Shown here: positions 4,302 to 19,299 of the stretch, one piece after another | Layout of the letters: each line of letters starts with the position of its first letter | How positions within the stretch are numbered: position 1 is the first letter of the stretch | Source: Lachnospiraceae bacterium | GTDB taxonomy: Bacteria > Bacillota > Clostridia > Lachnospirales > Lachnospiraceae | NCBI GenBank assembly: GCA_030524705.1 | Contig: JAUNGD010000023.1 | Location: 1 to 45,688, forward strand | DNA length: 45,688 nt | Reading direction: 5' to 3' | Made by a program: the position numbers and the translations under genes | Notes under the pieces: model-generated | The model's input: only the letters and a program-made list of their open reading frames with translations | Told to the model about the DNA's origin: nothing | Databases searched by the model: none

Positions 4302-5963
4302 ATGAATGCAGGAACAAAAAAATTTGATCTCTGGTCGGTAATAAAATTATTATTTGTGGGTATTTTCGGTTTGTTTCTGGTTTATCCCTTGTTCAATATT
4401 TTTAAAGAAGCGGTGATTTCACCGGACGGGCATTTTACGCTGGAACAATTCGTAAAGTTTTTTTCGGATCCTTATTACAGTATGACCATTTGGAACAGTT
4501 TAAAAGTGACAGTAGCCGTAACTTTGGGCTGCCTTTTGATCGGCGTTCCGTTTTCCTATTTTTATTCTTTTTATCGGCTGAAAGGGACAAAATTTTTGTT
4601 TATTTCCAGTTTACTTTGCTGTATGTCTGCACCATTTATTGGCGCATATTCATGGATTATGCTTCTCGGGCGTTCGGGAGTTGTTACCAAGTTTCTCAAA
4701 GCTGCTTTTGGCATAAAGCTTGGAAGCAGTATTTATGGATTCAGCGGTATTGTACTGGTACAGGTGTTGAAATTTTATCCGTTGGTATTAATCTATATGA
4801 ATGGAGCTTTCAGAAATATTGACAATTCTTTGATTGAAGCTGCGGAAAACATGGGATGTACTGGATTAAAACGATTTTTTAAAATAGTAATTAAGCTGAC
4901 CATGCCGACACTTTTGGCGGCGGCGCTGTTGGTTTTTATGCGGGCTTTTGCAGACTTTGGGACGCCGCTTCTGATTGGGGAGGGTTATCGGACGTTTACT
5001 GTTGAAATATACAATCAGTATATGGGAGAAAATGGTACGGATCACAGCTTTGCAGCGGCGATTAGTATTTTGGCGGTTGCTGTGACTGCAATCATTCTTC
5101 TTATTCAGAAATATGCGACAAACCATTATAAATTCAGCATGAGTGCTCTTCATCCGGTAGAAAAGAAAAAAGCGACAGGAATACGTGGTATTCTGATGCA
5201 TGTTTACTGTTATGGAGTGGTTGCTTTTGCAATTTTACCGCAGCTGTATATTATTTATCTGTCTTTCAGAAATTGCAAAGGAAGTATTTTTAAAGAAGGA
5301 TATTCACTGAATAATTATATTTCAGGCCTGGACAAATATCTATTCCGTTCGATTGGAAATACACTGGTTTTTGGTGTGATTTCTCTGATAATTATTATAG
5401 TATTTTCCATACTGATTGCCTATATAGTGGTACGGCGGGCAAATGTGATCAGCAATGCTATTGATGTAGTGGCAACGATTCCCTATGTAATTCCAGGTGC
5501 GGTGGTCGGAATTGCAATGATTATTTCTTTCAATAAGAAGCCTCTCAATATTGTAGGAACCATGTGGATTATGATATTGGCTTTGGTGATCCGAAGGATC
5601 CCGTATACGATTCGATCGGCTACGGCTACGCTGATGTCAATTCCGATGAGTATTGAGGAGGCATCTGTCAGCCTGGGAACATCAAAAATGAAAACATTGA
5701 TGAAGGTTACAGTACCGATGATGGCAAGCGGCATTACTTCCGGCGCAATTCTGAGTTGGGTTGCGATTATTACGGAGCTGTCCAGCGGAATTATTCTTTA
5801 CAATAACAAAAATATTACGTTGACAGTGGCTACATACGTACAAATTGTCAGAGGTAATTATGGTGTGGCGTGTGCATTTGCAACAGTACTTACTGTGTTC
5901 ACAGTCATATCAATGATCATATATCTGCTGGTAAGCAAATCAGAGGATAACGTAAAGCTGTAA
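4302..5963 (+). CDS. Fused double-domain ABC permease, FbpB/AfuB type
   Basis: A 553-aa integral membrane permease with about 12 hydrophobic segments, made of two consecutive MetI-type halves. Each half carries the cytoplasmic EAA loop that docks the ATPase: EAAENMGCTGLKRFFKIVI around residue 178 and EEASVSLGTSKMKTLMKV around residue 450. One polypeptide therefore supplies both halves of the channel, as in FbpB, AfuB and the aminoethylphosphonate importers. Length is as expected (500-580). It is flanked by its ATPase (15-nt gap) and its binding protein (65-nt gap containing a hairpin), which makes a complete three-gene importer. Confidence 0.9.
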   Translation: MNAGTKKFDLWSVIKLLFVGIFGLFLVYPLFNIFKEAVISPDGHFTLEQFVKFFSDPYYSMTIWNSLKVTVAVTLGCLLIGVPFSYFYSFYRLKGTKFLFISSLLCCMSAPFIGAYSWIMLLGRSGVVTKFLKAAFGIKLGSSIYGFSGIVLVQVLKFYPLVLIYMNGAFRNIDNSLIEAAENMGCTGLKRFFKIVIKLTMPTLLAAALLVFMRAFADFGTPLLIGEGYRTFTVEIYNQYMGENGTDHSFAAAISILAVAVTAIILLIQKYATNHYKFSMSALHPVEKKKATGIRGILMHVYCYGVVAFAILPQLYIIYLSFRNCKGSIFKEGYSLNNYISGLDKYLFRSIGNTLVFGVISLIIIIVFSILIAYIVVRRANVISNAIDVVATIPYVIPGAVVGIAMIISFNKKPLNIVGTMWIMILALVIRRIPYTIRSATATLMSIPMSIEEASVSLGTSKMKTLMKVTVPMMASGITSGAILSWVAIITELSSGIILYNNKNITLTVATYVQIVRGNYGVACAFATVLTVFTVISMIIYLLVSKSEDNVKL

Positions 5964-5975
5964 AAGATGTAACTG

Positions 5976-6000
5976 TCAGTTTGGGATATAGCCAGACTGA
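5976..6000 (+). other. Intra-operon stem-loop before binding-protein gene
   Basis: TCAGTTTGG (5976-5984) pairs with CCAGACTGA (5992-6000), one pair being a G-U wobble, around a 7-nt loop. It lies between permease and binding-protein genes, where stem-loops often raise binding-protein mRNA stability. No T tract, so not a terminator. Confidence 0.4.
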
Positions 6001-6028
6001 TAAAATAAAAAAGAAAAGGAGAAACGAT

Positions 6029-7075
6029 ATGAGAAAACAGACAACAAAACATGCAGTAATTACGATGGCAACAGTATTGGGATTATCCATGGGAATGTCC
6101 TTGCCCGTATTTGCGGAGGGGGAAGAAGTAGAGAATTCTCTGGTTATCTACACAGCGGAGCCGGACAGCAACATGGAGCCGTTGATTGCAGGCTTCAACG
6201 AGGTGTATCCGGATTGTGAGGTAGAAGTAATTTATGGTTCTGCAGGAGATATGACGTCACGTATTATTGCTGAATCAGCAGATCCTCAGTGCGATGTGAT
6301 GTTCAGTGGACTGAATGCAGGAGACGGGGATGCATACAAAGATTATTTTGAGGAGTATGTATCGGTCCATGATGAAGAAATGATAGAAGATTGTAAGAGC
6401 AATAACGGCTATTACAATTATGTGATTATTTCTCCAGCAGTCTTGTATGTAAATAATACGCTTTTGGAAGAAGCTGGTGTAACGGTAAAAAATTATCAGG
6501 ATTTGCTTCAGCCTGAGTTGGAAGGAATGGTTGTTTCTGCAGATCCGAATTCATCCTCAGCGGCCTGGAATAATCTGGCAAACATTTTGGCAGACTTTGG
6601 TTATGAATCAGAAGAAACCTGGGATTATATTGACAAACTGTTGGGCAATGGATTGGTCATCACATCCAGCTCATCCACTGTATTTACCTCTGTAACAAAT
6701 GGAGAGTACGCAGTTGGTCTGACCTATGAGACAGGAGCAACCACGCAGCTTTATGATGGTGCAGAGGATTGCGAAATTATTTACCCGGAAGAAGGCGGCG
6801 GATATATTGTTACCGCAGCGGCCATAGTGAAAGACTGCAAACATCCGGAAGCAGCGAAGGCATGGATTGATTATACCGCAAGTGCAGAGGGACAAACAGA
6901 ATGGGCGACTACCGTAGGAACGATTCGACCGACCAATGCAAATGCAACGTATGAGAGCGAATTTATGCAGCCATTCGATTCCATCAATTGGGTAACTCGT
7001 GATAACGATTATCTGACCAGCCATAAGAATGAGATTTTGGAAAAATGGAATGAGCTTTACAATAAGCACAATTAA
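6029..7075 (+). CDS. Extracellular solute-binding protein, FbpA/AfuA family
   Basis: A 348-aa secreted binding protein that delivers ligand to the importer at 3174-5963. Residues ~1-28 are a Sec signal peptide (basic start, hydrophobic core, SLPVFA cleavage site). The mature part (LVIYTAEPDSNMEPLIAGF) is typical of the family 1/6/8 class II fold that binds ferric iron, phosphorylated sugars, thiamine or aminoethylphosphonate. I chose ATG 6029 over an upstream in-frame ATG (5981) because AAAGGAG at 6015-6021 is well spaced for it and the signal peptide begins there. Oddly, there is no lipobox cysteine, so membrane anchoring is not explained. Ligand unknown; with a SorC regulator and a dehydrogenase nearby, a sugar-phosphate-like ligand is a reasonable guess. 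Confidence 0.85.
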   Translation: MRKQTTKHAVITMATVLGLSMGMSLPVFAEGEEVENSLVIYTAEPDSNMEPLIAGFNEVYPDCEVEVIYGSAGDMTSRIIAESADPQCDVMFSGLNAGDGDAYKDYFEEYVSVHDEEMIEDCKSNNGYYNYVIISPAVLYVNNTLLEEAGVTVKNYQDLLQPELEGMVVSADPNSSSAAWNNLANILADFGYESEETWDYIDKLLGNGLVITSSSSTVFTSVTNGEYAVGLTYETGATTQLYDGAEDCEIIYPEEGGGYIVTAAAIVKDCKHPEAAKAWIDYTASAEGQTEWATTVGTIRPTNANATYESEFMQPFDSINWVTRDNDYLTSHKNEILEKWNELYNKHN

Positions 7076-7120
7076 ATTTTTACAGTAATTGAAGTCTTTA
7101 CAGACCGCGTAGAGAGGATG

Positions 7121-7215
7121 TCAGTTAATATCAGTTTTTAGCCTGTGATATCCCTAAATAAGAAAATCCCATGGTAATCCAATGCTTAAAAAGCTTGGAT
7201 TTCACGGGATTTTCT
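7121..7215 (+). repeat. Dispersed ~95-bp repeat, copy 1, with terminator hairpin
   Basis: The left 50 bp (7121-7170) match 17205-17254 with one mismatch. The right part is a 53-nt hairpin core (7162-7214) whose ends GAAAATCCC and GGGATTTTC pair perfectly; inside are ATCCAA/TTGGAT and GCTT/AAGC pairs with bulges. This core is 52/53 identical to the reverse complement of the core in copy 2 (17246-17298), so the core is flipped relative to the shared flank. A smaller hairpin (ATATCA 7128-7133, TGATAT 7146-7151) precedes it. T's after the core let it act as the terminator of the binding-protein operon. Confidence 0.85.
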
Positions 7216-7294
7216 TTTTGTACCTACTTTTTTGTTAAATGACATATACAAAATAACTAAAAATGGCGAAAATAAATTGTTTAATATAGTTAAT

Positions 7295-7323
7295 TGACAC
7301 AATACGTTTCTTATGGTAAATTA
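7295..7323 (+). promoter_or_regulatory. Sigma-A-type promoter of the ROK-kinase/sugar ABC cassette
   Basis: TTGACA (7295-7300), a 17-nt spacer and TAAATT (7318-7323) with an extended -10 TGG just before it. The expected start near 7330 gives a ~100-nt leader before the ATG at 7429. The stretch TTATGGTAAA also occurs in the promoter of the ROK repressor at 15913-15922. Confidence 0.75.
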
Positions 7324-7327
7324 ATAA

Positions 7328-7412
7328 CATCACAGAAGTAAATAAAAGGAATCGTAAACAGTTAAAAGAGACGGGATAAAGGAATAAATTATTACATCAT
7401 AGAAGTAAATAA
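7328..7412 (+). repeat. Pair of 19-bp direct repeats in the cassette leader
   Basis: ACATCACAGAAGTAAATAA (7328-7346) and ACATCATAGAAGTAAATAA (7394-7412) match at 18 of 19 positions, 66 bp apart. The first overlaps the expected transcription start and the second ends just before the ribosome site of the kinase. They may be binding sites for the cassette's ROK repressor, or a local duplication; the role is inference. Confidence 0.5.
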
Positions 7413-7428
7413 TAGAAGGGGTGAAAGT

Positions 7429-8385
7429 ATGAATGTAGCAATCGGAATTGATTTGGGAGGAACAAATATAAAGTATGGACTTATAACAGAAAAGGGCGAT
7501 GTTATAAAAAAAATTTCATTGCCGACCAGAAGAAATTCCGGAGAAAGACAGATTCTTTCCGATATAGCTGCTGAAGTTGTTAGGCTGCAACAGGAGTTTA
7601 TGGGGCAGAATACATATAAAATGCTAGGTATTGGCGTAGGGATACCTGGGCCGGTTCGAGCAGATGGATATGTTGAAACTTGTGTAAATCTGAATTTCAA
7701 GAAAATTAATCCGGCAGAGGCCTTAAGTGAAATGCTGAAAGATATGCCCATTGTAGTCGGAAATGACGCGAACGTTGCTGCCTTGGGGGAAATGTGGCTG
7801 GGAGGCGGAAAAGGATACAAAAATATTCTTGTTGTTACTCTTGGGACAGGAGTAGGATGCGGAGTTGTTTTAAACGGCAGAATTGTATTTGGCAAAGCTG
7901 GATTAGCAGGAGAAATAGGGCATATTATTGTAAATCCTAATGAGGTTGATCAATGTAATTGTGGAAAAAGAGGATGTCTGGATCAATTTGCATCGGCGGA
8001 GGGAATTGTACGGAACGCGAAACGGATTCTGGAATTTTCTTCAATGTCTTCCGAACTGCGAAATATCCCTAAAGATGAACTGACCGCAGAGAAAATCGTA
8101 AATATAGCTAAGAACGGGGATGGGTTGGCCTATTTTATTTTAGATTATTGCATGAGTTTTTTGGGGAAATGTTTGGCAGATACTGCTTACGTAATAGATC
8201 CAGATGTATTTGTAATTGGCGGTGGCGTTTCGAAAGCAGGCGCTTTTTTGACAGATATGATTCAAAAGCATTACGAGAAACAGATCTCTTTATCTGAGGA
8301 AAGAACCCCTGTTATAGTTGCACAACTGGGAAATGATGCCGGTATCTACGGAGCAGCGAGAATGGTATTTGATAAAGAGACATAG
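7429..8385 (+). CDS. ROK-family sugar kinase
   Basis: A 318-aa cytoplasmic kinase expected to phosphorylate a hexose or amino-sugar with ATP. It has the N-terminal phosphate loop IGIDLGGTNIKYGL (~5-18), the catalytic segment GNDANVAALGE, the adenosine-region motif GTGVGCG, and the ROK zinc/sugar signature (GEIGHII followed by CNCGKRGC). It has no N-terminal helix-turn-helix, so it is an enzyme rather than a repressor. Length fits glucokinase-type ROK proteins (300-325). GGGGTGA precedes the ATG. It is the first gene of the cassette, 13 nt before the M24-fold gene, which suggests it acts on the sugar released or imported by that system. Exact sugar unknown. Confidence 0.85.
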   Translation: MNVAIGIDLGGTNIKYGLITEKGDVIKKISLPTRRNSGERQILSDIAAEVVRLQQEFMGQNTYKMLGIGVGIPGPVRADGYVETCVNLNFKKINPAEALSEMLKDMPIVVGNDANVAALGEMWLGGGKGYKNILVVTLGTGVGCGVVLNGRIVFGKAGLAGEIGHIIVNPNEVDQCNCGKRGCLDQFASAEGIVRNAKRILEFSSMSSELRNIPKDELTAEKIVNIAKNGDGLAYFILDYCMSFLGKCLADTAYVIDPDVFVIGGGVSKAGAFLTDMIQKHYEKQISLSEERTPVIVAQLGNDAGIYGAARMVFDKET

Positions 8386-8398
8386 GAAGGAAACGAAC

Positions 8399-9799
8399 AT
8401 GCTGGTAAATAAAGATAATATTCAATATGGAGAGATTAAAGCTCCGGAGGTAGAGTGTTCCTCAAAACCGATTGTATTAAATGATAGGACGATGGAGGAG
8501 CATAAAGGCAAAATTATTGCAGCAATGCAAAAAGAAAAATTAGATTTTCTTTTTATCTATGCAGATAGAGAGCATGGAGGAAATTTTGGGTATTTAACCG
8601 GATTTGAACCGAGATTTGAGGAAGCCGTACTTGTATTGCATGTGAATGGGAAAGCATATTTGTTGTTGGGAAATGAAAATTTGAAAATGGTAAAATACTC
8701 CAGAATTGAGGCAGAGGCTGTACACGTCCCGCACTTTTCCTTGCCCAACCAGCCCATGGATACTGAATTAAATGTAGAAGAATTGATAAGAAGGGCAGAA
8801 ATTTCAGATGGACAGCATGGGGGAGTTGTAGGATGGAAAATGTTTACCTCAAAGAAAGAGGTGAATATAGAGCTTTTTGATGTTCCGTATTTTCTGGTAG
8901 ATGCGCTGAAACAGATTGTTGGAAGGAATGGTTCGATTGAAAACAGAACGGCGTTGTTTATGGATCCATCGGATGGTGCACGGGCTATTGTGAACGCAGA
9001 TGAAGCCGCGCATTATGAATATGGAGCATCAAATGCGGCAGTACATATAAAAGCGGTTATGGATAATTTGAAAGAGGGAAAGACAGAAATAGAATTAGCC
9101 CGCTTTTTAAATCCATCTGGACAGCCGTTAACGGTTCAGACTATCTGTGCATCCGGGCAGCGTTTTACGAAAGCGGTTGTTGCACCCAGAGATAAAAGTA
9201 TTGAAATGGGAGAACCCTTTTCCGTCACAATAGGACTTCGGGGCGGTCTGACCTGTAGAGCCGGTTATGTGGCAAGAGACGAAGAGGATTTGCCAATGGA
9301 TCAAAAAATGTATATAGAGAAAGTCGCAAAACCATACTATGCGGCCTTGGCAACGTGGTATTCAAGTGTTGCGGTTGGTGTTACAGGAGGAGAAATTTAC
9401 CGGCTGGTAGAGCAGGCGGCACCGAAAGAAGAATATGGCTGGTATTTGAATCCTGGCCATTTGATATCAAGCGAAGAATGGCTTTCATCTCCATTTTATA
9501 AAGATTCTAATATTGTGCTGAAAAGCGGTATGATGCTGCAAATGGATATAATTTTTTCTGTAAAAGGATATGCAGGAATCAATGCAGAGGATGGTGTTTT
9601 GTTGGCCGATCGGGATTTGAGAGATGCAATAGCCCGGCGCTATCCTGAATTGTGGGTGCGGATGGCAAAGAGAAGAAGATATTTTACTGATGTATTAGGA
9701 ATTCAAATATCAGATGATTTGTTGCCGTTATCCGGTTTGTGTGGGTATGTTCGTCCGTTTTTGCTGGACAGGAAACGGGCTATGTTTTTAAAGAGCTGA
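8399..9799 (+). CDS. M24 (creatinase/prolidase-fold) family protein with altered metal site
   Basis: A 466-aa protein with the two-domain plan of aminopeptidase P, prolidase and creatinase: an N-terminal domain (~35-200) and a pita-bread C-terminal domain (~215-455). Of the five usual metal ligands, the His (GH, His354) and the last Glu (AED, Glu397) are visible; the first Asp is replaced by Thr277, the second falls in a changed segment (CRAGYVAR), and the penultimate Glu is Asp383. It is therefore either a non-metal enzyme, as creatinase is, or a catalytically dead relative. ATG 8399 was chosen over an upstream in-frame ATG because GGAAGG sits just before it and the gene then follows the kinase without overlap. 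Substrate unknown. Confidence 0.7.
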   Translation: MLVNKDNIQYGEIKAPEVECSSKPIVLNDRTMEEHKGKIIAAMQKEKLDFLFIYADREHGGNFGYLTGFEPRFEEAVLVLHVNGKAYLLLGNENLKMVKYSRIEAEAVHVPHFSLPNQPMDTELNVEELIRRAEISDGQHGGVVGWKMFTSKKEVNIELFDVPYFLVDALKQIVGRNGSIENRTALFMDPSDGARAIVNADEAAHYEYGASNAAVHIKAVMDNLKEGKTEIELARFLNPSGQPLTVQTICASGQRFTKAVVAPRDKSIEMGEPFSVTIGLRGGLTCRAGYVARDEEDLPMDQKMYIEKVAKPYYAALATWYSSVAVGVTGGEIYRLVEQAAPKEEYGWYLNPGHLISSEEWLSSPFYKDSNIVLKSGMMLQMDIIFSVKGYAGINAEDGVLLADRDLRDAIARRYPELWVRMAKRRRYFTDVLGIQISDDLLPLSGLCGYVRPFLLDRKRAMFLKS

Positions 9800-9835
9800 A
9801 TTTATAAATATATAGAGATACAGGTTGTTGCGATA

Positions 9836-9889
9836 AGTTCCATGGGAATGGAGGTGGATAAAATGCATGGAACTAAGCGTGAAAATTAA
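9836..9889 (+). promoter_or_regulatory. Hairpin with embedded mini-ORF before the binding-protein gene
   Basis: AGTTCCATG (9836-9844) pairs perfectly with CATGGAACT (9866-9874). The loop carries a strong ribosome site GGAGGTGG (9850-9857) leading to ATG 9863, which opens an 8-codon frame (MHGTKREN) ending at 9889. It could be a leader peptide, or a chance frame on a stabilising hairpin in front of the highly expressed binding-protein gene. Confidence 0.4.
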
Positions 9890-9915
9890 AATAATAAAAT
9901 CAGGAGGAAATTAAT

Positions 9916-10854
9916 ATGAAAAAGAAAATGGTAATGGCACTTGCAATGGTTTTAGGGCTCCAGTTGGCGGTAAGTGGTATAGCAAATGCAGAGGAATCAG
10001 ATGTTACGTTTGCTACTATTATGCAGACAAACAATGACTGGGCAATGACTTTGGCAAAGGGCGGCGAAGAAGCATGTGAAAAATACGGATATAAGCATAT
10101 TACTATGAATCCGGAGGGCGATATTCAAAAGCAGACAGATTTAGTTCAAAGCTGTATAAGTCAGGGCGTGACAGGACTGTTTCTTCATGCCGTTGACAGC
10201 CAGGCCATTATTCCGGTACTGAAGCAGGCTGCAGATGCAGGAATTTACGTGTTTGCACAGTCGGATATGGCAGAGGCATTTAAAGATTATGATAATTGCT
10301 TTTTTGCAGACTATAATCATAAGACAGCCGCTTCAAAATGTGCAGATGCTGTGGCAGAGGCTCTCGGAAATGAAGGGAAAGTTGGAATTATTGCGGGAAT
10401 TGCCGGAGCAGACAATACGACTCAGCGATCAGAGGGCTTCCGAAAGAGAATAGAAGAAGAATACAGCGATATTGAGATTGTTAATGAAATTAACTGTGAT
10501 TGGGACCGTGCAGTGGCAATGAGCGCAGCAGAAGATATGATCACCGGAAACCCTGATATTGGAGCATTCTACTGTATGGGTGAAGAAATGGCATGGGGTG
10601 TTTTAGAGGCGGTACAGGATTCTGGCAAAGATATTAAAGTAGTTACGATTGATGCCTCTACTCCGACGGTACAGATGGTAATGGATGGAGAAATGTATGC
10701 TTGTATTGGCTGTCCGCCAAAAAGCTTTTCCGGCGGAGCAATTGATATTATGAATAAGCTTCTGGCAGGAGAAACAGTAGACAGTCAGTTGTACCCGGTT
10801 GAACCTACATATATGACGCAGGAAAATGCATCGCTGGAAATGGCAGATTATTAA
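9916..10854 (+). CDS. Sugar ABC transporter binding protein, RbsB-like
   Basis: A 312-aa secreted binding protein of the periplasmic-binding-protein type I (ribose/galactose) group. Residues ~1-26 are a signal peptide ending in GIANA; the mature domain starts with VTFATIMQTNNDW and continues with the typical alternation of beta strands and helices (QKQTDLVQSCISQGVTGLFL; GKVGIIAGIAG; KVVTIDAS). It feeds the ATPase and two permeases that follow. Start supported by AGGAGG 8 nt upstream. Like the other two binding proteins of the window it has no cysteine at the signal-peptide end, so it is not a conventional lipoprotein. The ligand is probably a sugar or sugar conjugate. Confidence 0.85.
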   Translation: MKKKMVMALAMVLGLQLAVSGIANAEESDVTFATIMQTNNDWAMTLAKGGEEACEKYGYKHITMNPEGDIQKQTDLVQSCISQGVTGLFLHAVDSQAIIPVLKQAADAGIYVFAQSDMAEAFKDYDNCFFADYNHKTAASKCADAVAEALGNEGKVGIIAGIAGADNTTQRSEGFRKRIEEEYSDIEIVNEINCDWDRAVAMSAAEDMITGNPDIGAFYCMGEEMAWGVLEAVQDSGKDIKVVTIDASTPTVQMVMDGEMYACIGCPPKSFSGGAIDIMNKLLAGETVDSQLYPVEPTYMTQENASLEMADY

Positions 10855-10862
10855 TAATTACA

Positions 10863-10903
10863 GGGCTGTGAAAACATCTTTTTCGGGGCGTTTTGCACAG
10901 CCC
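10863..10903 (+). other. Stem-loop between binding-protein and ATPase genes
   Basis: GGGCTGTG (10863-10870) pairs with CACAGCCC (10896-10903), extended inward by AAAAC/GTTTT across a bulged G to 13 bp. Only TTT follows. It lies in the 75-nt gap after the binding-protein gene and probably acts as an attenuator or 3' stabiliser, giving more binding protein than membrane parts. Confidence 0.6.
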
Positions 10904-10929
10904 TTTATAAAAGCATGGAGGTGTAGCAA

Positions 10930-12417
10930 ATGGGAGAATTTATTTTGGATGTAAAAAACGTATCGAAAATATTTCCAGCGGTAAAAGCGTTGGACAATGT
11001 TTCTCTGCGGGTAAGAAAAGGAGAAATTCATGCTTTTGTAGGTGAAAATGGTGCAGGTAAATCTACATTGATGAAAATATTGAATGGAAACTATAAAAAA
11101 GATGAGGGAAGTATTTATTTTGACGGAAAAGAAGCAGATATTAAAAATCCGGAAGACGCGAGAAATCTTGGTATCAGTATTATATTTCAGGAATTAAATC
11201 TGGTTCCACATCTGTCGATAGCTGAAAATATTTATATGGGAAGATTGTTCAGAGGGAAATTTTCCTTGATCGACTGGGAAAAGGTATATAAAAGAGCAGA
11301 TGAATTAATGGAGCAGATTGGTTATCGGATGGACTCGCGTACAAAAGTGGAAAGTTTGAGTGTTGCTCAGAAACAAATGGTGGAAATTGCGAAAGCTCTT
11401 TCTTATCCTAATACAAAATTGATTCTGATGGATGAGCCTTCTGCAACACTTACAACAAAAGAATGCAAAAAGTTGTTTGACGTAATTCGAAGCTTGAAGG
11501 AAAGAGGGGTTTCTGTAATTTACATTTCTCATAAGCTGGAGGAAATTGATGAGTTATGTGAGTGGGTAACGATATTGCGGGATGGAAAAATTATAGACAG
11601 CGGGCCAATCTCATCCTTTACAAGGGACCAGATGATCGCAAAAATGATCGGAAGAGAGATAACGAATAAGTTCCCGAAAAGGAATAGTACAGTAAGGGAG
11701 AAAGAAGTACTTTCAGTGAAAGGGCTGAATCGTGCAGGGGTGATCTCAGATGTCTCTTTTTCTTTGCGGGAGGGAGAAGTGCTGGGATTTGCGGGTCTGG
11801 TAGGCGCTGGAAGAACGGAAATAGCGCGTGCTATCTGTGGAGTGGATTATACGGATTCTGGTGAAATATTCGTAGGAGGGGAAAGAGTAAAGATCAATAA
11901 TCCGAAAGATGCTTTAAAAGTTGGAATTGCATATTTAAGTGAGGACAGAAAGCAGGAGGGCTTGGTTTTAAAAGCACCTATTAAATGGAATATAAGCATG
12001 GCAAATATGGAGAATGCGTTGTCTATGGGTATGATAAATGAGAAAAAAGACAGGCAAATATCGGACAAAATGATCCAGGCTATGCTGATAAAAACCGCAT
12101 CTATGGAGGAATATGCCGGTAATTTGAGCGGCGGAAATCAACAGAAAATCGTTATTGGAAAATGGCTAAATACGAATGCAAAAATTTTTATTTTTGATGA
12201 ACCGACGCGGGGAATAGATGTTGGTGCTAAATATGAGATATATCTGCTAATCAACAGGCTGGTGGAAGAAGGAAGGAGCGTTATTCTTATTTCATCAGAA
12301 ATGCCGGAGGTACTGGAAATGAGTGATCGTGTATTAGTGATAAATAAAGGAACAATAGTTGCTGATTTATCAGGTGAAAAAAAGAACGCACAGACAGTAA
12401 TGGAGTATGCAATTTGA
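10930..12417 (+). CDS. Sugar ABC transporter ATPase, RbsA-like (two nucleotide-binding domains)
   Basis: A 495-aa ATPase with two tandem nucleotide-binding domains, the hallmark of the Rbs/Mgl/Xyl carbohydrate importers. Domain 1 (~1-240) has Walker A GENGAGKST and Walker B LILMDEPSATL; domain 2 (~255-495) has a degenerate Walker A (LVGAGRTE), signature LSGGNQQK and Walker B IFIFDEPTRGIDVGAKYEIY. The degenerate second Walker A is normal for this family. GGAGGTG precedes the ATG. Its 3' end overlaps the first possible start of the next permease, so the operon continues directly. It energises the importer with permeases at 12443 and 13432. Confidence 0.92.
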   Translation: MGEFILDVKNVSKIFPAVKALDNVSLRVRKGEIHAFVGENGAGKSTLMKILNGNYKKDEGSIYFDGKEADIKNPEDARNLGISIIFQELNLVPHLSIAENIYMGRLFRGKFSLIDWEKVYKRADELMEQIGYRMDSRTKVESLSVAQKQMVEIAKALSYPNTKLILMDEPSATLTTKECKKLFDVIRSLKERGVSVIYISHKLEEIDELCEWVTILRDGKIIDSGPISSFTRDQMIAKMIGREITNKFPKRNSTVREKEVLSVKGLNRAGVISDVSFSLREGEVLGFAGLVGAGRTEIARAICGVDYTDSGEIFVGGERVKINNPKDALKVGIAYLSEDRKQEGLVLKAPIKWNISMANMENALSMGMINEKKDRQISDKMIQAMLIKTASMEEYAGNLSGGNQQKIVIGKWLNTNAKIFIFDEPTRGIDVGAKYEIYLLINRLVEEGRSVILISSEMPEVLEMSDRVLVINKGTIVADLSGEKKNAQTVMEYAI

Positions 12418-12442
12418 AAGGGATAGGGAGGTGGTAGAAATT

Positions 12443-13420
12443 ATGGCAGAGGAGAAAGTCATGAAAGATGGGGCTTTAAATAAATATATTCAATTTTTTC
12501 TTGAAAATCTAAATTGGGTTCTGTTAATTCTTTTGGTATTATTTGGGGTTCTTTTTACAGATAATTTTTTCTCATGGAATAATATTTCAAATGTATTGAA
12601 ACAGGTAAGTATTAATGGAGTACTGGCTGCCGGATTTACAATCGTAATTCTTGCAGATGGTTTTGACCTGTCGATCGGTTCTATTATATCAATTTGCGCT
12701 GTTGTTGCGGTCGGGACGTTAAATGCTACCCAAAATACACTGCTGGCAGTTCTGGTTTCTATTCTGATCGGTTTAGCTTTCGGTATCTTTAATGGACTAC
12801 TGATAAAAATTATAAAAGGGAATAACAGCGACTCCTTTTTAACGACGCTGGGAACGATGCTGGTAGCATCGAGCTGTGCGTATACATACAGCGAAGGCTT
12901 CAATATTTATTGTGATAGCACTGTAAAAGCCTACCGGGTGATTGGCAAAGGAACAATTTTGGGTATTCCGGTTTTGATTGTTATCATGTTTTCTGTAATG
13001 CTTATATTAGAATTTATTCTTCAGAAAACAGCTCTTGGAAGGAAGATTAAGCTGAGCGGAAGCAATCGTGTAGCGGTCTACATGTCAGGAATTAATGCAC
13101 ATAATATAAAAATATTTTCTTTTGCGGTAACTGGATTATGTGCAGGTATTGCAGCCGTTATGCTGACGGCAAGAACCGGAGTCGCGTCGCCCTCCACTGG
13201 ATATGGCTATGAAGTGGATGCTGCAACGGCAGCGATTATAGGAGGTAACCGGGAAGGCGGAATGAGAGGAAGCATTGTAAAAACGCTTACGGGGGTTTTG
13301 ATCCTGGGATTGCTGACAAATATTATGAATATCATGAATATAAGCACTGTAGTTCAGACAATCTTTAAAGGTACTATATTGTTACTTACCTTGTATACAA
13401 ATCGTTTAAAGAGGCTGTAG
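12443..13420 (+). CDS. Sugar ABC transporter permease 1, RbsC-like
   Basis: A 325-aa membrane permease of the BPD_transp_2 type with about 8-10 hydrophobic segments. It shows the family pattern LADGFDLSIGSI near residue 75 and GRKIKLSGSNRVAVYMSGIN in the conserved cytoplasmic loop near residue 205. ATG 12443 follows AGGGAGG at 12425-12431; an earlier in-frame ATG at 12407 would overlap the ATPase gene by 11 nt and give a longer, charged N-terminus without homologous features. It is followed 11 nt later by a second RbsC-like gene, so the channel is probably a heterodimer. Confidence 0.88.
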   Translation: MAEEKVMKDGALNKYIQFFLENLNWVLLILLVLFGVLFTDNFFSWNNISNVLKQVSINGVLAAGFTIVILADGFDLSIGSIISICAVVAVGTLNATQNTLLAVLVSILIGLAFGIFNGLLIKIIKGNNSDSFLTTLGTMLVASSCAYTYSEGFNIYCDSTVKAYRVIGKGTILGIPVLIVIMFSVMLILEFILQKTALGRKIKLSGSNRVAVYMSGINAHNIKIFSFAVTGLCAGIAAVMLTARTGVASPSTGYGYEVDAATAAIIGGNREGGMRGSIVKTLTGVLILGLLTNIMNIMNISTVVQTIFKGTILLLTLYTNRLKRL

Positions 13421-13431
13421 GAGGGACGAGT

Positions 13432-14373
13432 ATGGTATTGGCAAAAAAGTTGATGAATCAATATAGAATTTGGATTATTTGTATCGTAGCATTTTTGATA
13501 GTCCCTTTGTTTAAACCTGCATTTTTAACAGTGAACAATATAGAAGGAATTTTAACTTCTATGGTTACATACGGTGTCATTGCACTTGGCTTGACAATGA
13601 CATTGATAACAGGAGAGATCAATATTTCAATTGGCGCAGTTATGGCTTTTTCCAGTGTTACTTTTGCGGTATGTATGAAGTCTCTTCCGATTGTAGTATC
13701 CATGGTGCTCGCTTTAGCAGGAGCTGCTGTTTTTGGACTGGTAGACGGATATTTTGTTGCATATAAAAAGCTGCCGGCTTTTATGGTCTCTGTTGCTGTA
13801 ATGGTAACGGTGCGGGGAATTGCGTTGGCGGTATCCGGAGAAGCTCCTGTTGGAATTATGTCAGATACAATTGCAAAAATAGGGAGACTTCAGATCGCAC
13901 ACATACCGGTATTGTTTTTATTTTTATTGTTATGTGTGTTAATTTTAGAGCTATTTTTGAAAAGAACACAGGTAGGAAGAAATATGTACGCTGTGGGAGG
14001 CGCACCGGAGGTTGCAGCAGCCTACGGATTAAATGTAGAGAAATATAAGTGCCTTTCTTTGACGTTTTGTTCTTTCATGGCAGGCGTGGGAGGGATTCTT
14101 CTGGCTATCCGAATGTGTTCAGGCTCTCCGTCTGTGGGAGAAGATGCAATGCCTTCTGTTCTTCCGATGATCGTAATTGGTGGTACTTCAATATCTGGTG
14201 GAAAAGGCGGAATGATAAAAACATTGTCCGGAATCGTTCTGATGAATTTGATTTTTAATATTATGAGTATGTTTAATATATACGTAAATGTACAGAACCT
14301 GATAAAAGGAGGAATTCTTCTGGTTATCGTCATTACAGACAGGTATCTGGAAAACAGAAATAAAAAAATATAA
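13432..14373 (+). CDS. Sugar ABC transporter permease 2, RbsC-like
   Basis: A 313-aa membrane permease, paralogous to the previous gene. It contains the conserved segment LITGEINISIGAVMAFSSV near residue 60 and GRNMYAVGGAPEVAAAYGLN in the ATPase-facing loop near residue 185, plus the GGTSISGGKG stretch near the C-terminus. AGGAGGGAC lies just before the ATG. Two different permeases with one double-domain ATPase is a known arrangement in several Rbs-type importers (for example those for galactofuranose). The M81-type hydrolase gene starts 22 nt later. Confidence 0.88.
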   Translation: MVLAKKLMNQYRIWIICIVAFLIVPLFKPAFLTVNNIEGILTSMVTYGVIALGLTMTLITGEINISIGAVMAFSSVTFAVCMKSLPIVVSMVLALAGAAVFGLVDGYFVAYKKLPAFMVSVAVMVTVRGIALAVSGEAPVGIMSDTIAKIGRLQIAHIPVLFLFLLLCVLILELFLKRTQVGRNMYAVGGAPEVAAAYGLNVEKYKCLSLTFCSFMAGVGGILLAIRMCSGSPSVGEDAMPSVLPMIVIGGTSISGGKGGMIKTLSGIVLMNLIFNIMSMFNIYVNVQNLIKGGILLVIVITDRYLENRNKKI

Positions 14374-14395
14374 TTTGTAAAGGGAGGCAAGCATT

Positions 14396-15853
14396 ATGAA
14401 ATTTTTAGTAGCAGGATTTTATCATGAATCGAATACATTTAATCCGATTCTTACAAAAAAAGAGGATTTTATCGTAGTTCAAGGAAAGGAGCTACTGGAT
14501 TGTTTTCCGGGAGCTGTAAATACGTTTCTGGAAGCCGGTGCCGAGGTTGTGCCTTGTACGTTTGCGGGATGGATGTCTTCTGGCGTGATTGAAGAAGATG
14601 CATATCGGTATTATGTGGATATGATCGTGGAGCAGATAAAGGCGGAAGAGAATATCAGCGGTATTTGGCTTCAATTGCATGGGGCAATATATGTTGAAAA
14701 CATTGGATGCGGCGAATTATTTATGCTGAGGAAAATTCGGCAGGCAGTCGGATATGATATACCGATTGCAATAGGTATGGATCCTCATGGAAATCTTTCG
14801 CCGGACATTGCAGACTATGCAAACATTGTACGGGCATATCACACGGCGCCGCATGTGGACCAGCAGGATACGTACAGGGTAACGGCGGAGGCTTTGGTGG
14901 ATTTTGCAGAGCGTAAGGTTAGAATAAAACCGGCCTTTGTACGGCTTCCGATGCTCCTTTGTGGGGATACGGCCCTGACCAGGGATGAACCCCTTCGTTC
15001 GGTTATTGCACATTTCAAACAGATGGAGGCAGATAAAGAAGTTGCGTGTGCATCCTTTTTTATCTCAATGCATTCTGCAAATACAGAAAATACATATCCT
15101 GCAGTCGTGATCGTACCGAGAAATCCCGAGGATTACGATCGTATGATGGACATTGCCAGAAAGACTGCCGAAGAAGTTTATGACAGGAGACATGAATTTC
15201 GCTTTGAGGGAGAGTTGGTAAAACCGGAAGTGGCAATAGACATGGCTTGTGATTGTGCAGAGTCTCCGGTGGTCATTTCTGATTCTGGTGACAATACGAC
15301 GGCGGGAGCTACTGGAATGAATACTTTCTTTTTGAAACTGTTTCTTGAACGGAAAGATCTTCATGGGAAAAAGGTATTAATTTCAACAATTTATGATAAG
15401 AATGCATACAATGTACTAAAGGATAAAGAGATCGGCAGTGAATTTGAAATTATGCTGGGAACAGGTGTTGACCAATGGTCGCAGCCAGTGCCGATTAAAG
15501 GGAAGATAAAGGCAAAAGGGGAGACATTGATTTATGCACCGATGAGGAATTCGAGAAATACTACGGCAGGCGGTTTGATAACAGTGGAGGTAGGCGATAT
15601 AGATATTACTATATGTGAAGTAGCAGATTCATTTACCGATGTGGATCAGTGTGAGGTCGGTAATTTTTGTGCGGAAGATTACGATATTATTGTGGTAAAA
15701 CAGGCATATCAGTTCCCGGATCTAGTTAAGCTGGCTAAAAAACAGATCATTGCATTGACACCGGGAGCTACATATCAGGATTTGATTGCTATAAAAAATC
15801 TATATACAAAACTTCCCTGGACCCTATGGCCTTTCCAGGGAACAGACAAATAA
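14396..15853 (+). CDS. M81 family metallohydrolase (MlrC/microcystinase C type)
   Basis: A 485-aa protein of the M81/MlrC family, whose founding member cleaves linearised microcystin. The N-terminal half is the M81 domain; the metal ligand pattern of the family is intact: Glu11 in FYHESNTF, Asp129-x-His131 in GMDPHGN and His153 in YHTAPH (the Asp-x-His to His spacing is as in MlrC). The C-terminal half (~300-470) matches the MlrC C-terminal domain. GGGAGG precedes the ATG. Family members outside microcystin degraders have no settled substrate. Co-location with a sugar importer and a ROK kinase suggests an amide-containing sugar derivative; this is inference. Confidence 0.85.
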   Translation: MKFLVAGFYHESNTFNPILTKKEDFIVVQGKELLDCFPGAVNTFLEAGAEVVPCTFAGWMSSGVIEEDAYRYYVDMIVEQIKAEENISGIWLQLHGAIYVENIGCGELFMLRKIRQAVGYDIPIAIGMDPHGNLSPDIADYANIVRAYHTAPHVDQQDTYRVTAEALVDFAERKVRIKPAFVRLPMLLCGDTALTRDEPLRSVIAHFKQMEADKEVACASFFISMHSANTENTYPAVVIVPRNPEDYDRMMDIARKTAEEVYDRRHEFRFEGELVKPEVAIDMACDCAESPVVISDSGDNTTAGATGMNTFFLKLFLERKDLHGKKVLISTIYDKNAYNVLKDKEIGSEFEIMLGTGVDQWSQPVPIKGKIKAKGETLIYAPMRNSRNTTAGGLITVEVGDIDITICEVADSFTDVDQCEVGNFCAEDYDIIVVKQAYQFPDLVKLAKKQIIALTPGATYQDLIAIKNLYTKLPWTLWPFQGTDK

Positions 15854-15895
15854 TCTACTCCTGGATTAGAAAAATACATTTTCTGAGGAAAGAAT

Positions 15896-15924
15896 TTGTA
15901 CATAGTGCCTGGTTATGGTAAAAT
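15896..15924 (+). promoter_or_regulatory. Promoter of the ROK repressor gene
   Basis: TTGTAC (15896-15901), a 17-nt spacer and TAAAAT (15919-15924) preceded by TGG (extended -10). The predicted start near 15931 leaves only about 9 nt before ATG 15940, which argues for the TTG at 15961 as the true translation start. Confidence 0.65.
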
Positions 15925-15960
15925 CAGGAAAAAGGCTAAATGCGGGGGAGGAGGAGAAGT

Positions 15961-17157
15961 TTGAAGTACCGTACCGTTCAAAAACAAATTAATATTAAAG
16001 ATAATAATTGTAAGCTTGTCTTAAATCTCATACGGGATAATCAGGAAAACAATATTTCCAGAGCAGGGATTGCCAAGATAACAAAAATGAGTGCTACCAG
16101 CATAACCAGGATTACAGATTACCTTATGAACCTGGGGTTGGTCAGACAGGCAGAGGCTGTTGCCACGGGTACGGTGGGGCGAAATGGATTTCAACTGCAG
16201 GTAGTGCCAGATGCGTTATTGACGGCGGGTATTTCGATTGACTCAGATTATGTGGATGTTTGTCTTTTAGATTTTGATGATGAGATTATCTCAACAGAAC
16301 GCCGGGAATTGGATAGACGTCCATATGCTCCAGAGGAGATTTTAATGACGGCAAAAGAGCTTTTTTTGAATGCATGTAAGAAAGCCGGAGTAGACAGCAA
16401 ATTAGTGAAATCAATCGGTATTTCCTGTATCGGAAATGTGGATTATCAAACTGGTAAGGTATTTTTTGCACCGCAGTTTCAATGGCTAAACGTGGAGCTT
16501 GGAAAAATGGCAAATGATATATTTGAGCAGCCTGTATTTGTAGATAATGATATGAAGGCGTCCCTGGTGGGATTATCACACCGTCATAAAGATATTGCCC
16601 ACGAGGATGTTACATATTTGTCCGTAGGAATGGGAGTCGGCTCAGCCGTAATGTACGGAGGCGTTTTGGTGAGAGGTTCAAACAATGCTTCGGGTGAAGT
16701 CGGACACATTATTGTGCAGCCGGGAGGAAGACGCTGTGACTGTGGGCAGAGAGGCTGTATTCAGACATATTTGACAAAAGTTAGTTGGATTGAACAGTGC
16801 CAGGAAGAAGGAAATTATGTAGAGAATATTTTCCAGATTTATGAGTCTTTTGCCAGAGAAGAGGAATGGGCAATAAAGTTTGTTGAGCGGCAGGCAGATC
16901 ATTTGGCACTGCTGATTCGAAATCTTGTGTATATGTATAACACAGAATATATATTGGTGGGCGGTGCTATCATCTATGATTTCCCGGAATTATTTAAGCT
17001 GGTAGAAGGAAAAGTAGAGGAACTGCTGCATGTGAACCTGTATTCTGATTTGCATTTGATGCGTGTACCAGAGAAAGATAACAGCGTTGTCGGAGCTGCT
17101 TTTATGGCGCAGGAAATTTATATGGAAAAAGTACTGTTTAAAGATGCCGGTGTGTGA
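15961..17157 (+). CDS. ROK-family transcriptional repressor (NagC/XylR type)
   Basis: A 398-aa repressor. Residues ~10-70 form a winged helix-turn-helix (SRAGIAKITKMSATSITRIT), followed by a ROK sugar-binding domain with the signature GEVGHIIVQPGGRRCDCG and GCIQ. The kinase phosphate loop is poor (GISIDSDYVDVCLLD), as in regulators. I chose the TTG at 15961, which follows the very strong site GGGGGAGGAGGAG, over the ATG at 15940; the promoter at 15896-15924 supports this. Last gene of the cassette bracketed by the two repeats, so it most likely represses the promoter at 7295 and possibly its own, with a sugar or sugar phosphate from this pathway as inducer. Confidence 0.85.
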   Translation: MKYRTVQKQINIKDNNCKLVLNLIRDNQENNISRAGIAKITKMSATSITRITDYLMNLGLVRQAEAVATGTVGRNGFQLQVVPDALLTAGISIDSDYVDVCLLDFDDEIISTERRELDRRPYAPEEILMTAKELFLNACKKAGVDSKLVKSIGISCIGNVDYQTGKVFFAPQFQWLNVELGKMANDIFEQPVFVDNDMKASLVGLSHRHKDIAHEDVTYLSVGMGVGSAVMYGGVLVRGSNNASGEVGHIIVQPGGRRCDCGQRGCIQTYLTKVSWIEQCQEEGNYVENIFQIYESFAREEEWAIKFVERQADHLALLIRNLVYMYNTEYILVGGAIIYDFPELFKLVEGKVEELLHVNLYSDLHLMRVPEKDNSVVGAAFMAQEIYMEKVLFKDAGV

Positions 17158-17204
17158 AGCAAAGTCAGTAAAATATGACCTTTTAAGACAATAGACTGGG
17201 AACC

Positions 17205-17298
17205 TCAGTTAATATCAGTTTTTAGCCTGTGATATCCCCAAATAAGAAAATCCCGTGAAATCCAAGCTTTTTAAGCGTTGGATTACCATGGGATTTTC
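17205..17298 (+). repeat. Dispersed ~95-bp repeat, copy 2, hairpin core flipped
   Basis: Positions 17205-17254 repeat 7121-7170 with a single mismatch and in the same orientation. The 53-nt core 17246-17298 (ends GAAAATCCC and GGGATTTTC) is instead the reverse complement of the core of copy 1, at 52 of 53 positions. It lies between the convergent ROK repressor (+) and thioesterase (-) genes, whose stops are at 17157 and 17308, and can terminate both; on the minus strand it is followed by TTATTT. It marks the right edge of the 10 kb cassette. Confidence 0.85.
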
Positions 17299-17307
17299 GC
17301 CTAGATG

Positions 17308-17823
17308 TCAGAAACCTTCTTGCCGACGTTTTTTTCGAAAATTGTACCGTTTTTCGCCGTTTTCCCATTCAGCGAATTGTTCGGGCGTATGTAGTTCCAG
17401 CCGCGGAACCGGGACGGGAGTCATATTTTCGTCGACGGCAACCTCCACCACATATGCCCGGTTGATCGACTTTCGGATACCGTCCATTCCTTCTACATAG
17501 GTATCGACTCTGACCTCCATGGAGGTACTTCCCACGTATGTCATGCGTCCCACCAGTACGATGACTTCTCCGGCTTTGGCGCCTTCTTTGAATTGAAGAT
17601 TGTCTACGGCAGCCGTGGTTATTCTTGTCTCACAATGTCTTCGCGCTACGATACCGGCCACTTCGTCAATCCACATCATAAGCTGTCCGCCGAACAGACG
17701 GTGAGAGCTATTCAAATAAGCAGGAAACAGCAGATGTGCCTGCTCGACAACAGAATCCTCTACTTTTTTTGAATTTTCTGTCCGGGAAATCTGTCCAGAG
17801 GTGGTATGTGTTTCTTTGACCAT
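17308..17823 (-). CDS. Acyl-CoA thioesterase, hotdog fold (YciA/BACH type)
   Basis: A 171-aa cytoplasmic thioesterase that hydrolyses acyl-CoA to free acid and CoA. It has a single hotdog domain with the family motif LNSSHRLFGGQLMMWIDEVAG (~37-57), corresponding to the N-x(n)-GG-x-L-x-x-WIDE pattern of YciA-like enzymes, and the central strand TTAAVDNLQFKEGAKAGE. The C-terminal tail is basic. It starts 19 nt after the CoA-transferase stop on the same strand and is read with it from the promoter at 19097-19125. A role in releasing CoA from dead-end or excess intermediates of the neighbouring acyl-CoA pathway is likely. Confidence 0.85.
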   Translation of the reverse strand: MVKETHTTSGQISRTENSKKVEDSVVEQAHLLFPAYLNSSHRLFGGQLMMWIDEVAGIVARRHCETRITTAAVDNLQFKEGAKAGEVIVLVGRMTYVGSTSMEVRVDTYVEGMDGIRKSINRAYVVEVAVDENMTPVPVPRLELHTPEQFAEWENGEKRYNFRKKRRQEGF

Positions 17824-17842
17824 TGCGATGCCTCCTTCCGTT

Positions 17843-19033
17843 TTAGATTACTCCGCTTTCTTTCAGTCTGGCAAGTTCTTCATCTGTTTTGTGGAGAAGA
17901 CCCTTGAAGATTTCCTCGTTGTTTTCCCCAATTAATGGTGCGCGTTCACGATTGACAATGGGGCGGGTGGCAAGCTTGAGCGGGCTGCCTACAAAGGGGA
18001 CTTTACCCAATCCCGGTACTTCTGTATAGACGACCATTTCACGTTCCAGAGAATTTGGATCGTGCAGGATACGGTCGAGATTAAACACGATTCCGCAGGG
18101 CACTCCGGCATCGGTCAGCAGCTGGTCGGCCTCTTCCACAGTATGCTGTGCGAACCATTTTGCTGCAAGGCGATCCACGGTAAAATAATCAGCCATTCGG
18201 TTTTCGATGACCATATACTTTTCATTAAGCAGCTCTGGATCCTGAGTCACTTCTGCAAATCGTTTATAATTCGGATCGGTTCCGGCATGAAGACACACAT
18301 AACCGTTCGTGCACTGATAAACGTTAGAAGGGCAGGCAAGCGGGTCTCCTGTGTCATATTTTGGAACCACACCGATATCGACGCCGTTAAGAGCGAAGCC
18401 CGGGAGACGTGTCTCGAATACAGAGAAGAGGCAGTCTACCATGGCGGTATCAATGCATTGGCCCTGGCCGGTTTTTTCACGGTCATATAGCGCCATCATA
18501 ATAGCGAGTGCGTTATATATGCCGGATATATGGTCGCCCAGTGGGATTCCGGTGGGACGCGGCCCGCTTTCGGTAAAGTTTATTGCATACATGCCGCTCA
18601 TTGCTGCAGCAATGCCGTCGAAAGCTGCTTTGTGAGAATAACGTCCGCTTTGTCCGAATCCGGAAATAGAGGACATGATAATGCGTGGGTTGATTTCTTT
18701 GCAGGTTTCGTAGTCAAATCCCATTTTTGACATTGTTCCAGGACGGAAGTTTTCGATAATGACATCAGACTGCGCAATGAGCTCCCGGAAAAGCGCTTTT
18801 CCTTCATCGGTTCGAAAATTAATGGTGATGCCCTTTTTATTTCGGTTGAAAGCGGTGACGTAAACACTGATGCCGTCTTTATACGGTCCCAGTCTTCGGC
18901 CATCTTCACCGGCGCCGACACGTTCGATTTTTATAACCTCAGCACCCATATCTGCAAGAAGCATTCCGCAGAAGGGAGCAGAAATAAATCGTCCCAAATC
19001 AAGAATACGAATTCCTTTTAAAATACCTTCCAT
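17843..19033 (-). CDS. Family III CoA-transferase (CaiB/BaiF/formyl-CoA transferase type)
   Basis: A 396-aa enzyme that moves CoA between carboxylic acids, usually from a product acyl-CoA to the incoming substrate. It begins with the family segment GIRILDLGRFISAPFCGMLLADMGAEVIKIE, shows IIENFRPGTMSKMG and GQCIDTAMVD, and has Asp167 (in PLGDHISG) where the catalytic Asp of formyl-CoA transferase lies. I chose ATG 19033 because GGAGG (19041-19045) precedes it; the longer frame from 19105 lacks a site and adds a non-family tail. It is divergent from the acyl-CoA ligase gene, sharing a regulatory region. Substrate not determinable; the bile-acid, carnitine and aromatic-acid enzymes all look alike at this level. 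Confidence 0.88.
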   Translation of the reverse strand: MEGILKGIRILDLGRFISAPFCGMLLADMGAEVIKIERVGAGEDGRRLGPYKDGISVYVTAFNRNKKGITINFRTDEGKALFRELIAQSDVIIENFRPGTMSKMGFDYETCKEINPRIIMSSISGFGQSGRYSHKAAFDGIAAAMSGMYAINFTESGPRPTGIPLGDHISGIYNALAIMMALYDREKTGQGQCIDTAMVDCLFSVFETRLPGFALNGVDIGVVPKYDTGDPLACPSNVYQCTNGYVCLHAGTDPNYKRFAEVTQDPELLNEKYMVIENRMADYFTVDRLAAKWFAQHTVEEADQLLTDAGVPCGIVFNLDRILHDPNSLEREMVVYTEVPGLGKVPFVGSPLKLATRPIVNRERAPLIGENNEEIFKGLLHKTDEELARLKESGVI

Positions 19034-19096
19034 ATTGAATCCTCCATAAAAAATGAATCTGCTGAAAAATTTTTTTGAAATCTTAGCTTGTAAATG

Positions 19097-19125
19097 ATTG
19101 TACATTGGTAAATTACAAAAGTGAA
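19097..19125 (-). promoter_or_regulatory. Promoter of the CoA-transferase/thioesterase operon
   Basis: Read on the minus strand: TTCACT (19125-19120), a 17-nt spacer and TACAAT (19102-19097) with TG one base before it. The expected start near 19090 leaves about a 55-nt leader to ATG 19033. Confidence 0.55.
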
Positions 19126-19247
19126 AACAATTTCATTCGAAAAAATCCTAACATGATGAGTGGAGAATGTCAATAAAAAGGCGAAAAAAAGATTTTAATT
19201 GTGAAAATATCATAAAAATATCGCGAATTATTTTGCAAAAATGACAA

Positions 19248-19276
19248 TTGACTTATGGAAGAATGGGAAATAACAT
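19248..19276 (+). promoter_or_regulatory. Promoter of the acyl-CoA ligase/CoA-transferase operon
   Basis: TTGACT (19248-19253), a 17-nt spacer and TAACAT (19271-19276). The expected start is near 19283, immediately before the palindrome at 19286-19299. Confidence 0.6.
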
Positions 19277-19285
19277 AAAAGAAAG

Positions 19286-19299
19286 CGATAACGTTATCA
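19286..19299 (+). promoter_or_regulatory. CcpA cre-like / LacI-type operator
   Basis: CGATAACGTTATCA fits the cre consensus TGWNANCGNTNWCA at every defined position but the first, and contains the perfect 12-bp palindrome GATAACGTTATC (19287-19298). Placed at about +4 to +17 of the predicted transcript, it is well positioned for roadblock or initiation repression. The binder could be CcpA or the LacI-type regulator encoded at 33368. Confidence 0.65.

Follow-up and report, generated by a model that had tools for sequence, protein, structure and literature searches.

Which compound is broken down by an operon that sets two hydrolases of peptidase-like fold beside a sugar importer, a sugar kinase and a repressor? 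The question is raised by positions 7429–17157 of contig JAUNGD010000023.1 from a Lachnospiraceae bacterium, part of the 45,688-nucleotide (nt) stretch that we analysed as a whole and refer to as the window. Our comparison of this operon with a set of collected loci (numbered with the prefix L) suggests that it is a regulated catabolic set for a small sugar-containing molecule that also bears an amide- or amine-linked group, a reading for which we see arguments for and against in about equal balance. The initial annotation had proposed uptake of an amide- or peptide-linked sugar that is cleaved by one or both of the hydrolases. That idea fits better after our survey, in which the M24-fold hydrolase is recast as the probably metal-free, creatinase-like constant part of a wider module. 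No description of such an operon turned up in a literature search for which subscription papers were mostly beyond reach.

Gene content and recurrence of the operon

The open reading frame (ORF) list and the domain scans of the window reveal one compact operon of eight genes on a single strand, positioned as the initial annotation had placed it:

7429..8385, plus strand: ROK-family sugar kinase (glucokinase type); Pfam ROK, TIGR00744 above its cut-off
8399..9799, plus strand: M24-fold protein of a subfamily without both metal-ligand Asp residues; probable metal-free C–N hydrolase
9916..10854, plus strand: CUT2 (Rbs-type) substrate-binding protein; Peripla_BP_4
10930..12417, plus strand: CUT2 ATPase with two ATP-binding cassette (ABC) domains; domain scans
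12407..13420, plus strand: CUT2 permease 1; BPD_transp_2
13432..14373, plus strand: CUT2 permease 2; BPD_transp_2
14396..15853, plus strand: M81 (MlrC-type) metallohydrolase; PF07364 and PF07171, Zn-site residues E11, H95, D129, H131 and H153 kept
15940..17157, plus strand: ROK-family repressor (helix-turn-helix (HTH) plus ROK), Mlc/NagC-like; domain scans

The same gene order is found again in L032 and L045. The initial annotation had named failure of these genes to co-occur elsewhere as a ground for giving up its proposal; kinase, M24-fold protein, importer, M81 and repressor recur together at both loci. A chance grouping is rejected on this synteny and on control stretches of 20 kb each, taken at round positions in seven genomes and labelled with the same home-made hidden Markov models (HMMs) as the loci: M24, M81 or M20 matches occur in 0 of 20, and CUT2 genes in 1. 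Since the loci were labelled by these HMMs on mechanical ORFs, some labels need care: the 'CUT2' label at L116 is a false call on a 948-residue protein whose start is presumably UvrA-like, and the weak CUT2 ATPase labels at L093 and L099 probably mark other ABC ATPases. We left unrepaired the M24 gene of L042 and the RbsA gene of L038, each split (the former into two ORFs), and the binding protein of L032, which seems to change frame.

The M24-fold protein

Translation of the M24-fold protein more likely starts at ATG 8399 (466 amino acids) than at the mechanically called TTG 8318, because a Shine–Dalgarno-like AGGAAGGA (8384–8391) lies just before it, overlapping the kinase stop. The protein adopts the creatinase/prolidase ('pita-bread') fold and does not retain the five metal ligands D, D, H, E and E. 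In the comparison with 1pv9, whose D209, D220, H284, E313 and E327 we take to be the metal ligands, D209 is replaced by T and D220 falls in a gap, while H284, E313 and E327 correspond to H354, D383 and E397. Because both metal-binding Asp residues are gone and one Glu is now Asp, the protein is probably no metallopeptidase, and on this point the initial proposal is not borne out as worded; it is a probable metal-free C–N hydrolase.

Structural matching places creatinase and ectoine hydrolase nearly as close to the M24-fold protein as prolidase, and the match list includes EutD, the SPT16 domain and D36/H38 mutants of the L. lactis prolidase. The creatinases (1chm, 1kp0 and 7yto) match it over the full-length fold, with root-mean-square deviations of 2.6–2.7 Å over 353–354 residues, at only 14–15% identity. 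Creatinase hydrolyses a C–N bond without a metal and serves as our working model, although we know of no sugar context for it. At E 0.001 the M24-fold protein matches no NCBIfam family, the DoeA models included. An alignment of 16 sequences contains 54 invariant columns, many of them polar, including D56, E58, H59, R72, E74, E75, R287, H354, E360, D383 and E397.

The subfamily is sparsely distributed. Some M24 match at E 0.001 is present in 27 of 299 same-family genomes, and clear members, at E 8e-77 or better with the next match at 1e-9, in 8 of the 299 (10 places). At class level it is found in 6 of 391 genomes at E 1e-30, the own genome counted, and a scan of GTDB contigs yielded 13 loci. 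The survey set comprises 30 proteins at 26 loci; its table omits L052 (a weak, 21% match), the overlapping L078 and one piece shorter than 350 residues. A second, shorter M24 lineage adjoins M81 and sugar-type importers at L080, L081 and L083, and, read by eye, seemingly also lacks both metal-ligand Asp residues.

Partner hydrolases of the M24 subfamily

An amide- or peptide-type hydrolase lies within 7 kb and on the same strand at 19 of the 26 M24 loci: M81 at 9, M20 at 5 others (that of L043, 5.7 kb from M24, counted as nearby), Amidohydro_2 at 4 and M18 at 1, with none at 7. We assigned the M18 of L041 and the M81 of L046, located on L078, manually. The operons in L033, L035 (from Blautia caecimuris DSM 29492, a relative that can be cultured) and L036 read kinase, M24, substrate-binding protein, ATPase, one permease, M20 and ROK repressor, so that M20 takes the slot of M81 between permease and repressor. 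The M20 proteins of L035 and L036 share 83% and 69% identity with that of L033, and all three M20 proteins scanned (L033, L046 and L050) pass the cut-off of the ArgE/DapE model TIGR01910, that of L033 barely (218.1 vs 217.6). Compared with the window, the kinase, M24 and repressor of L033, L035 and L036 are 48–66% identical, whereas the importer parts are 25–37% identical and the binding protein of L036 has no match to that of the window, indicating a shared core with changing outer parts.

The own genome carries a second, M20-type M24 operon, L050 (G000:C85, 8330–17017), composed of M20, M24, substrate-binding protein, ATPase, two permeases and ROK repressor, and in a same-genus genome (L046/L078) M81 and M20 stand beside its two M24 copies. 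At L039, kinase and M24 are paired with an amino-acid-type binding protein (SBP_bac_3). The presence of an ArgE/DapE-type M20 deacylase or of Amidohydro_2 in the place of M81 favours amide or C–N hydrolysis of a sugar-containing molecule. This part of the initial proposal has thereby gained ground, while a metallopeptidase role for the M24-fold protein is improbable.

The M81 hydrolase

The window M81 matches PF07364 (235 bits) and PF07171 (117 bits), which places it among MlrC-type M81 proteins. Among 46 M81 proteins, H95, D129, H131 and H153 are kept in 46 and E11 in 45, with one gap. It resembles MlrC/M81 structures (7ylq, 3iuu) in both Pfam domains and in all five Zn-site residues, but differs from MlrC in scoring far under the MlrC model and in having a sugar importer and a kinase as partners; its identity as a microcystinase is rejected on that score (NF041767, 83.1 vs a cut-off of 999 bits). 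The Zn-site residues of MlrC include H150, D184, H186 and H208 (PMC12474180), and the spacing of H95, D129, H131 and H153 is the same.

M81 is rare: 17 genomes among the 299 of the same family carry it, as do 22 among 398 from the whole phylum (own genome counted in both), and the genome of the window has one match. To our knowledge it has no settled role outside microcystin degradation, and our literature search, subject to the same limits of access, turned up none, although passing mentions of M81 proteins exist. Among the 299 genomes, the M24 subfamily (8 genomes) and M81 (17 genomes) occur together in 5 (Fisher p 1.6e-5, treating genomes as independent), and in all 5 they are neighbours at most 6 kb apart.

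In a tree of 46 M81 proteins (5 fragments dropped from 51 ORFs; L048 assigned to PTS and L115 to CUT2 by hand, PTS being the phosphotransferase system), one 16-row clade (100/99), which includes the window protein, contains all 14 rows with M24 within 8 kb. Four of these 14 come from L048, and three (L080, L081 and L083) are links to the shorter M24 type; the remaining two rows of the clade, L079 and L082, are without M24. Importers labelled CUT2, PTS or CUT1-like next to M24 accompany 13 of the 16 rows, whereas Dpp-type peptide importers occur with 7 rows, all of them outside the clade. The earlier statement that such hydrolases are rarely seen with sugar importers therefore fits M81 at large and fails for the clade of the window protein. 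L048 carries four M81 genes, an AbrB-family (PF05145) gene, a beta-glucoside-type PTS IIBC gene and M24 side by side (6216–17672). In another family of the phylum, a ROK-family protein adjoins M81 with a Dpp-type peptide importer at L101 and L105.

Sugar kinase and importer

The ROK kinase scores 275 bits against TIGR00744 (cut-off 260.35), in the range of ROK glucokinases, and its best sequence matches in the PDB are the glucokinases 2qm1 and 3vgk. At 11 of the 26 loci a ROK kinase precedes M24 by 0–25 nt, and in 7 of these the mechanically called spans overlap. PTS genes of sorbose/mannose type adjoin M24 at L047, and those of beta-glucoside type lie close to it at L048; no ROK match was found at these two loci. 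Other surveyed loci carry PfkB kinases (L043 and L115), a GH36 melibiase (L034), a glucuronyl-esterase-like protein (L117) and DUF2961 (L114). The ROK-kinase tree is too poorly resolved to show whether the M24-linked kinases form one clade.

The importer is of CUT2 type, with a Peripla_BP_4 binding protein, a double ATPase and BPD_transp_2 permeases. Its binding protein aligns best with ribose-type proteins and stays below the RbsB equivalog cut-off (118.9 vs 337 bits). At the positions that we take to be ribose contacts, N13 and D215 are kept, F15 and F164 are replaced by W, and F16, D89, R90, R141, N190 and Q235 are replaced by A, S, D, T, G and C, respectively. The same changes recur in L044, in L045 and, up to the apparent frame change, in L032, except that S becomes T. 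Because the ribose-contact positions are mostly changed, plain ribose is unlikely as the ligand, and on this ground and on the RbsB score the identity of a ribose (Rbs) operon is rejected. The rbs operon of Escherichia coli likewise combines a CUT2 importer, a sugar kinase and a repressor; unlike it, the window operon has a ROK in place of a PfkB kinase, two extra hydrolases and mostly replaced ligand sites in the binding protein.

Regulatory region and boundaries

The following features precede the kinase gene:

7157..7219, no strand assigned: inverted repeat with 17-nt arms, 88% complementary, and a T-rich end; repeat search
7294..7322, plus strand: promoter-like TTGACA-17-TAAATT; promoter scan
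7325..7344, plus strand: operator-like element copy 1, TAACATCACAGAAGTAAATA; seen in 7 operons
7392..7411, plus strand: operator-like element copy 2; repeats copy 1 directly (83% over 30 nt) at a distance of 67 nt

The preceding operon ends at 7075, and the inverted repeat that comes after it is likely its terminator and the boundary of the M24/M81 operon; it is absent from the calls of the terminator scan, its loop being longer than the maximum of 8 allowed there. Downstream, the operon is limited by genes on the opposite strand.

Promoter-like sites are common in this region (37 in 7000–17400 vs 29.8 expected). In seven operons the 20-nt element TAACAYCAYAGRAGWAATWA comes after a promoter-like site ahead of the kinase gene, and it is double in the window, L033 and L035; in six related operons a TTGAC box, read by eye, stands before it. 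With at most 2 mismatches, the 1.57 Mb of collected loci contain 15 matches, 10 of which are the sites from which the pattern was derived, compared with 0 for the reversed pattern and 0–1 in eight shuffles. Of the other five, one (L098) is not at an M24 locus, and four are: L036 (in the gap between M24 and the binding protein), L042 (1 kb upstream of M24), L078 (upstream of M81) and L115 (upstream of M24). The whole own genome contains only two matches, both in the window; L050 has a weak copy with 3 mismatches at 8296. Across the 299 same-family genomes a narrower pattern with at most 2 mismatches gave 8 matches, compared with 13 when the pattern was reversed, and among those 8 only the perfect match of G214 lies at a recognised M24 operon. 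An element of this length is therefore not suited to searching whole genomes at this setting.

The repressor contains a ROK domain and a MarR-type HTH below its cut-off, and does not reach the NagC/Mlc equivalog cut-offs (135 vs 650 and 116 vs 530 bits). We infer that it binds the operator-like element.

Genomic surroundings

The neighbouring operon at 627–7075 encodes a SorC-type sugar-sensing regulator, a DRL-type oxidoreductase, presumably DXR-like, and an ABC importer; the best match of the importer's binding protein, below the cut-off, is the 2-aminoethylphosphonate protein PhnS2. On the other side, 17308–32855 begins with a thioesterase and a class III CoA-transferase on the minus strand, followed by an acyl-CoA ligase, a CoA-transferase, MaoC, two enoyl-CoA hydratases, a branched-chain-amino-acid-type importer, a short-chain dehydrogenase/reductase (SDR), a thiolase and a 3-hydroxyacyl-CoA dehydrogenase, a set that looks like anaerobic acid degradation. 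At 33350–35695, a LacI-type regulator adjoins a DUF4147/MOFRL protein, which we take to be of glycerate 2-kinase type.

Discussion

In the putative order of steps, the CUT2 importer would take up the sugar conjugate and the ROK kinase would phosphorylate its sugar part, as a PTS would at the two PTS-linked relatives. The M24-fold protein, creatinase- or ectoine hydrolase-like and without the metal pair, would then cut the C–N bond next to the sugar, and the M81 Zn enzyme would hydrolyse the other, amide bond, a task that the M20 deacylase or the amidohydrolase may perform in sister operons. The repressor would sit on 7325–7344 and 7392–7411 until the sugar or its phosphate displaces it. Operons for Amadori products (frl/gfr) combine an importer or PTS, a sugar kinase and an enzyme that cleaves sugar–amine conjugates, a layout common to the window operon; unlike in those systems, the domain scan found no SIS-type deglycase among its eight proteins.

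Several observations weigh against a sugar conjugate as the substrate. A nearby hydrolase is not obligatory for M24, because none lies within reach at 7 of the 26 loci, although L042 and L044, two of the seven, seem disrupted or rearranged. Mapped onto the M24 tree, hydrolase type changes 15 times vs a shuffled mean of 17.3, a value as low being reached in 16 of 200 shuffles, and this weak clustering may reflect frequent swapping or loose association. Since the M20-type operons have binding proteins that share only 25–26% identity with that of the window or do not match it, the ligands may differ. At L119, whose M81 lies outside the clade of the window, CUT2 genes are 4.7–7.2 kb away, and at the same-genus M81 locus L078 there are dehydrogenases and no kinase was found. 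Furthermore, the glucokinase-like score of the kinase would also fit plain glucose. It is nevertheless unlikely, in our estimate, that the operon serves uptake of a plain sugar, polyol or inositol-like compound and that its M24-fold and M81 proteins have drifted to lyase, lactonase or isomerase functions, as in the M24-fold dimethylsulfoniopropionate lyase DddP: an ArgE/DapE-type M20 deacylase or an amidohydrolase replaces M81 in sister operons, the Zn site of M81 is intact, and L039 has an amino-acid-type importer.

A substrate without any sugar, such as an N-acyl amino acid, a dipeptide or an ectoine-like cyclic amidine, appears improbable, even though M24 plus deacylase would mirror EutD plus EutE. 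EutD is among the structural matches, and the shorter M24 beside M81 in L080 weakly matches DoeA models (56 bits vs a cut-off of 575). Ectoine catabolism proceeds through the hydrolase EutD/DoeA and the deacetylase EutE/DoeB and includes no kinase in the available part of its description (PMC5924519), whereas the window operon has a sugar-type importer. The window M24 differs from ectoine hydrolase in matching no DoeA model, and the sugar kinase that immediately precedes M24 at 11 of the 26 loci, the two PTS importers, the PfkB kinases and the melibiase all argue for a sugar. We give little credence to the view that the M24-fold protein is a non-enzyme partner or sensor and that M81 hydrolyses alone. 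M24-fold non-enzymes are known, the metal ligands are lost and an SPT16 domain is among the structural matches, but the 54 invariant columns over 16 sequences, many of them polar, and the persistence of the M24-fold protein where M81 is absent speak against it.

Returning to the sugar-conjugate reading, a broader interpretation is possible, though doubtful: the M24 subfamily may be a new family of metal-free M24-fold hydrolases that act on phosphorylated sugar–amine or sugar–amide conjugates and make up, together with a ROK kinase or a PTS, a portable 'deglycosylation' core; an M81, M20 or amidohydrolase module would be added to this core to suit each conjugate. M81 would then have its first physiological role outside microcystin degradation. 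If a conserved neighbourhood with a kinase and a sugar importer exchanges its M81 for a deacylase, both M81 and the degenerate M24 lineage would gain a directly testable chemistry. The source is a gut-type bacterium with a self-contained gene set, and comparable sets, whose parts are interchangeable, are found in other Clostridia; such a neighbourhood would also point to a class of sugar conjugates that Clostridia use and that annotation as 'peptidase' has hidden.

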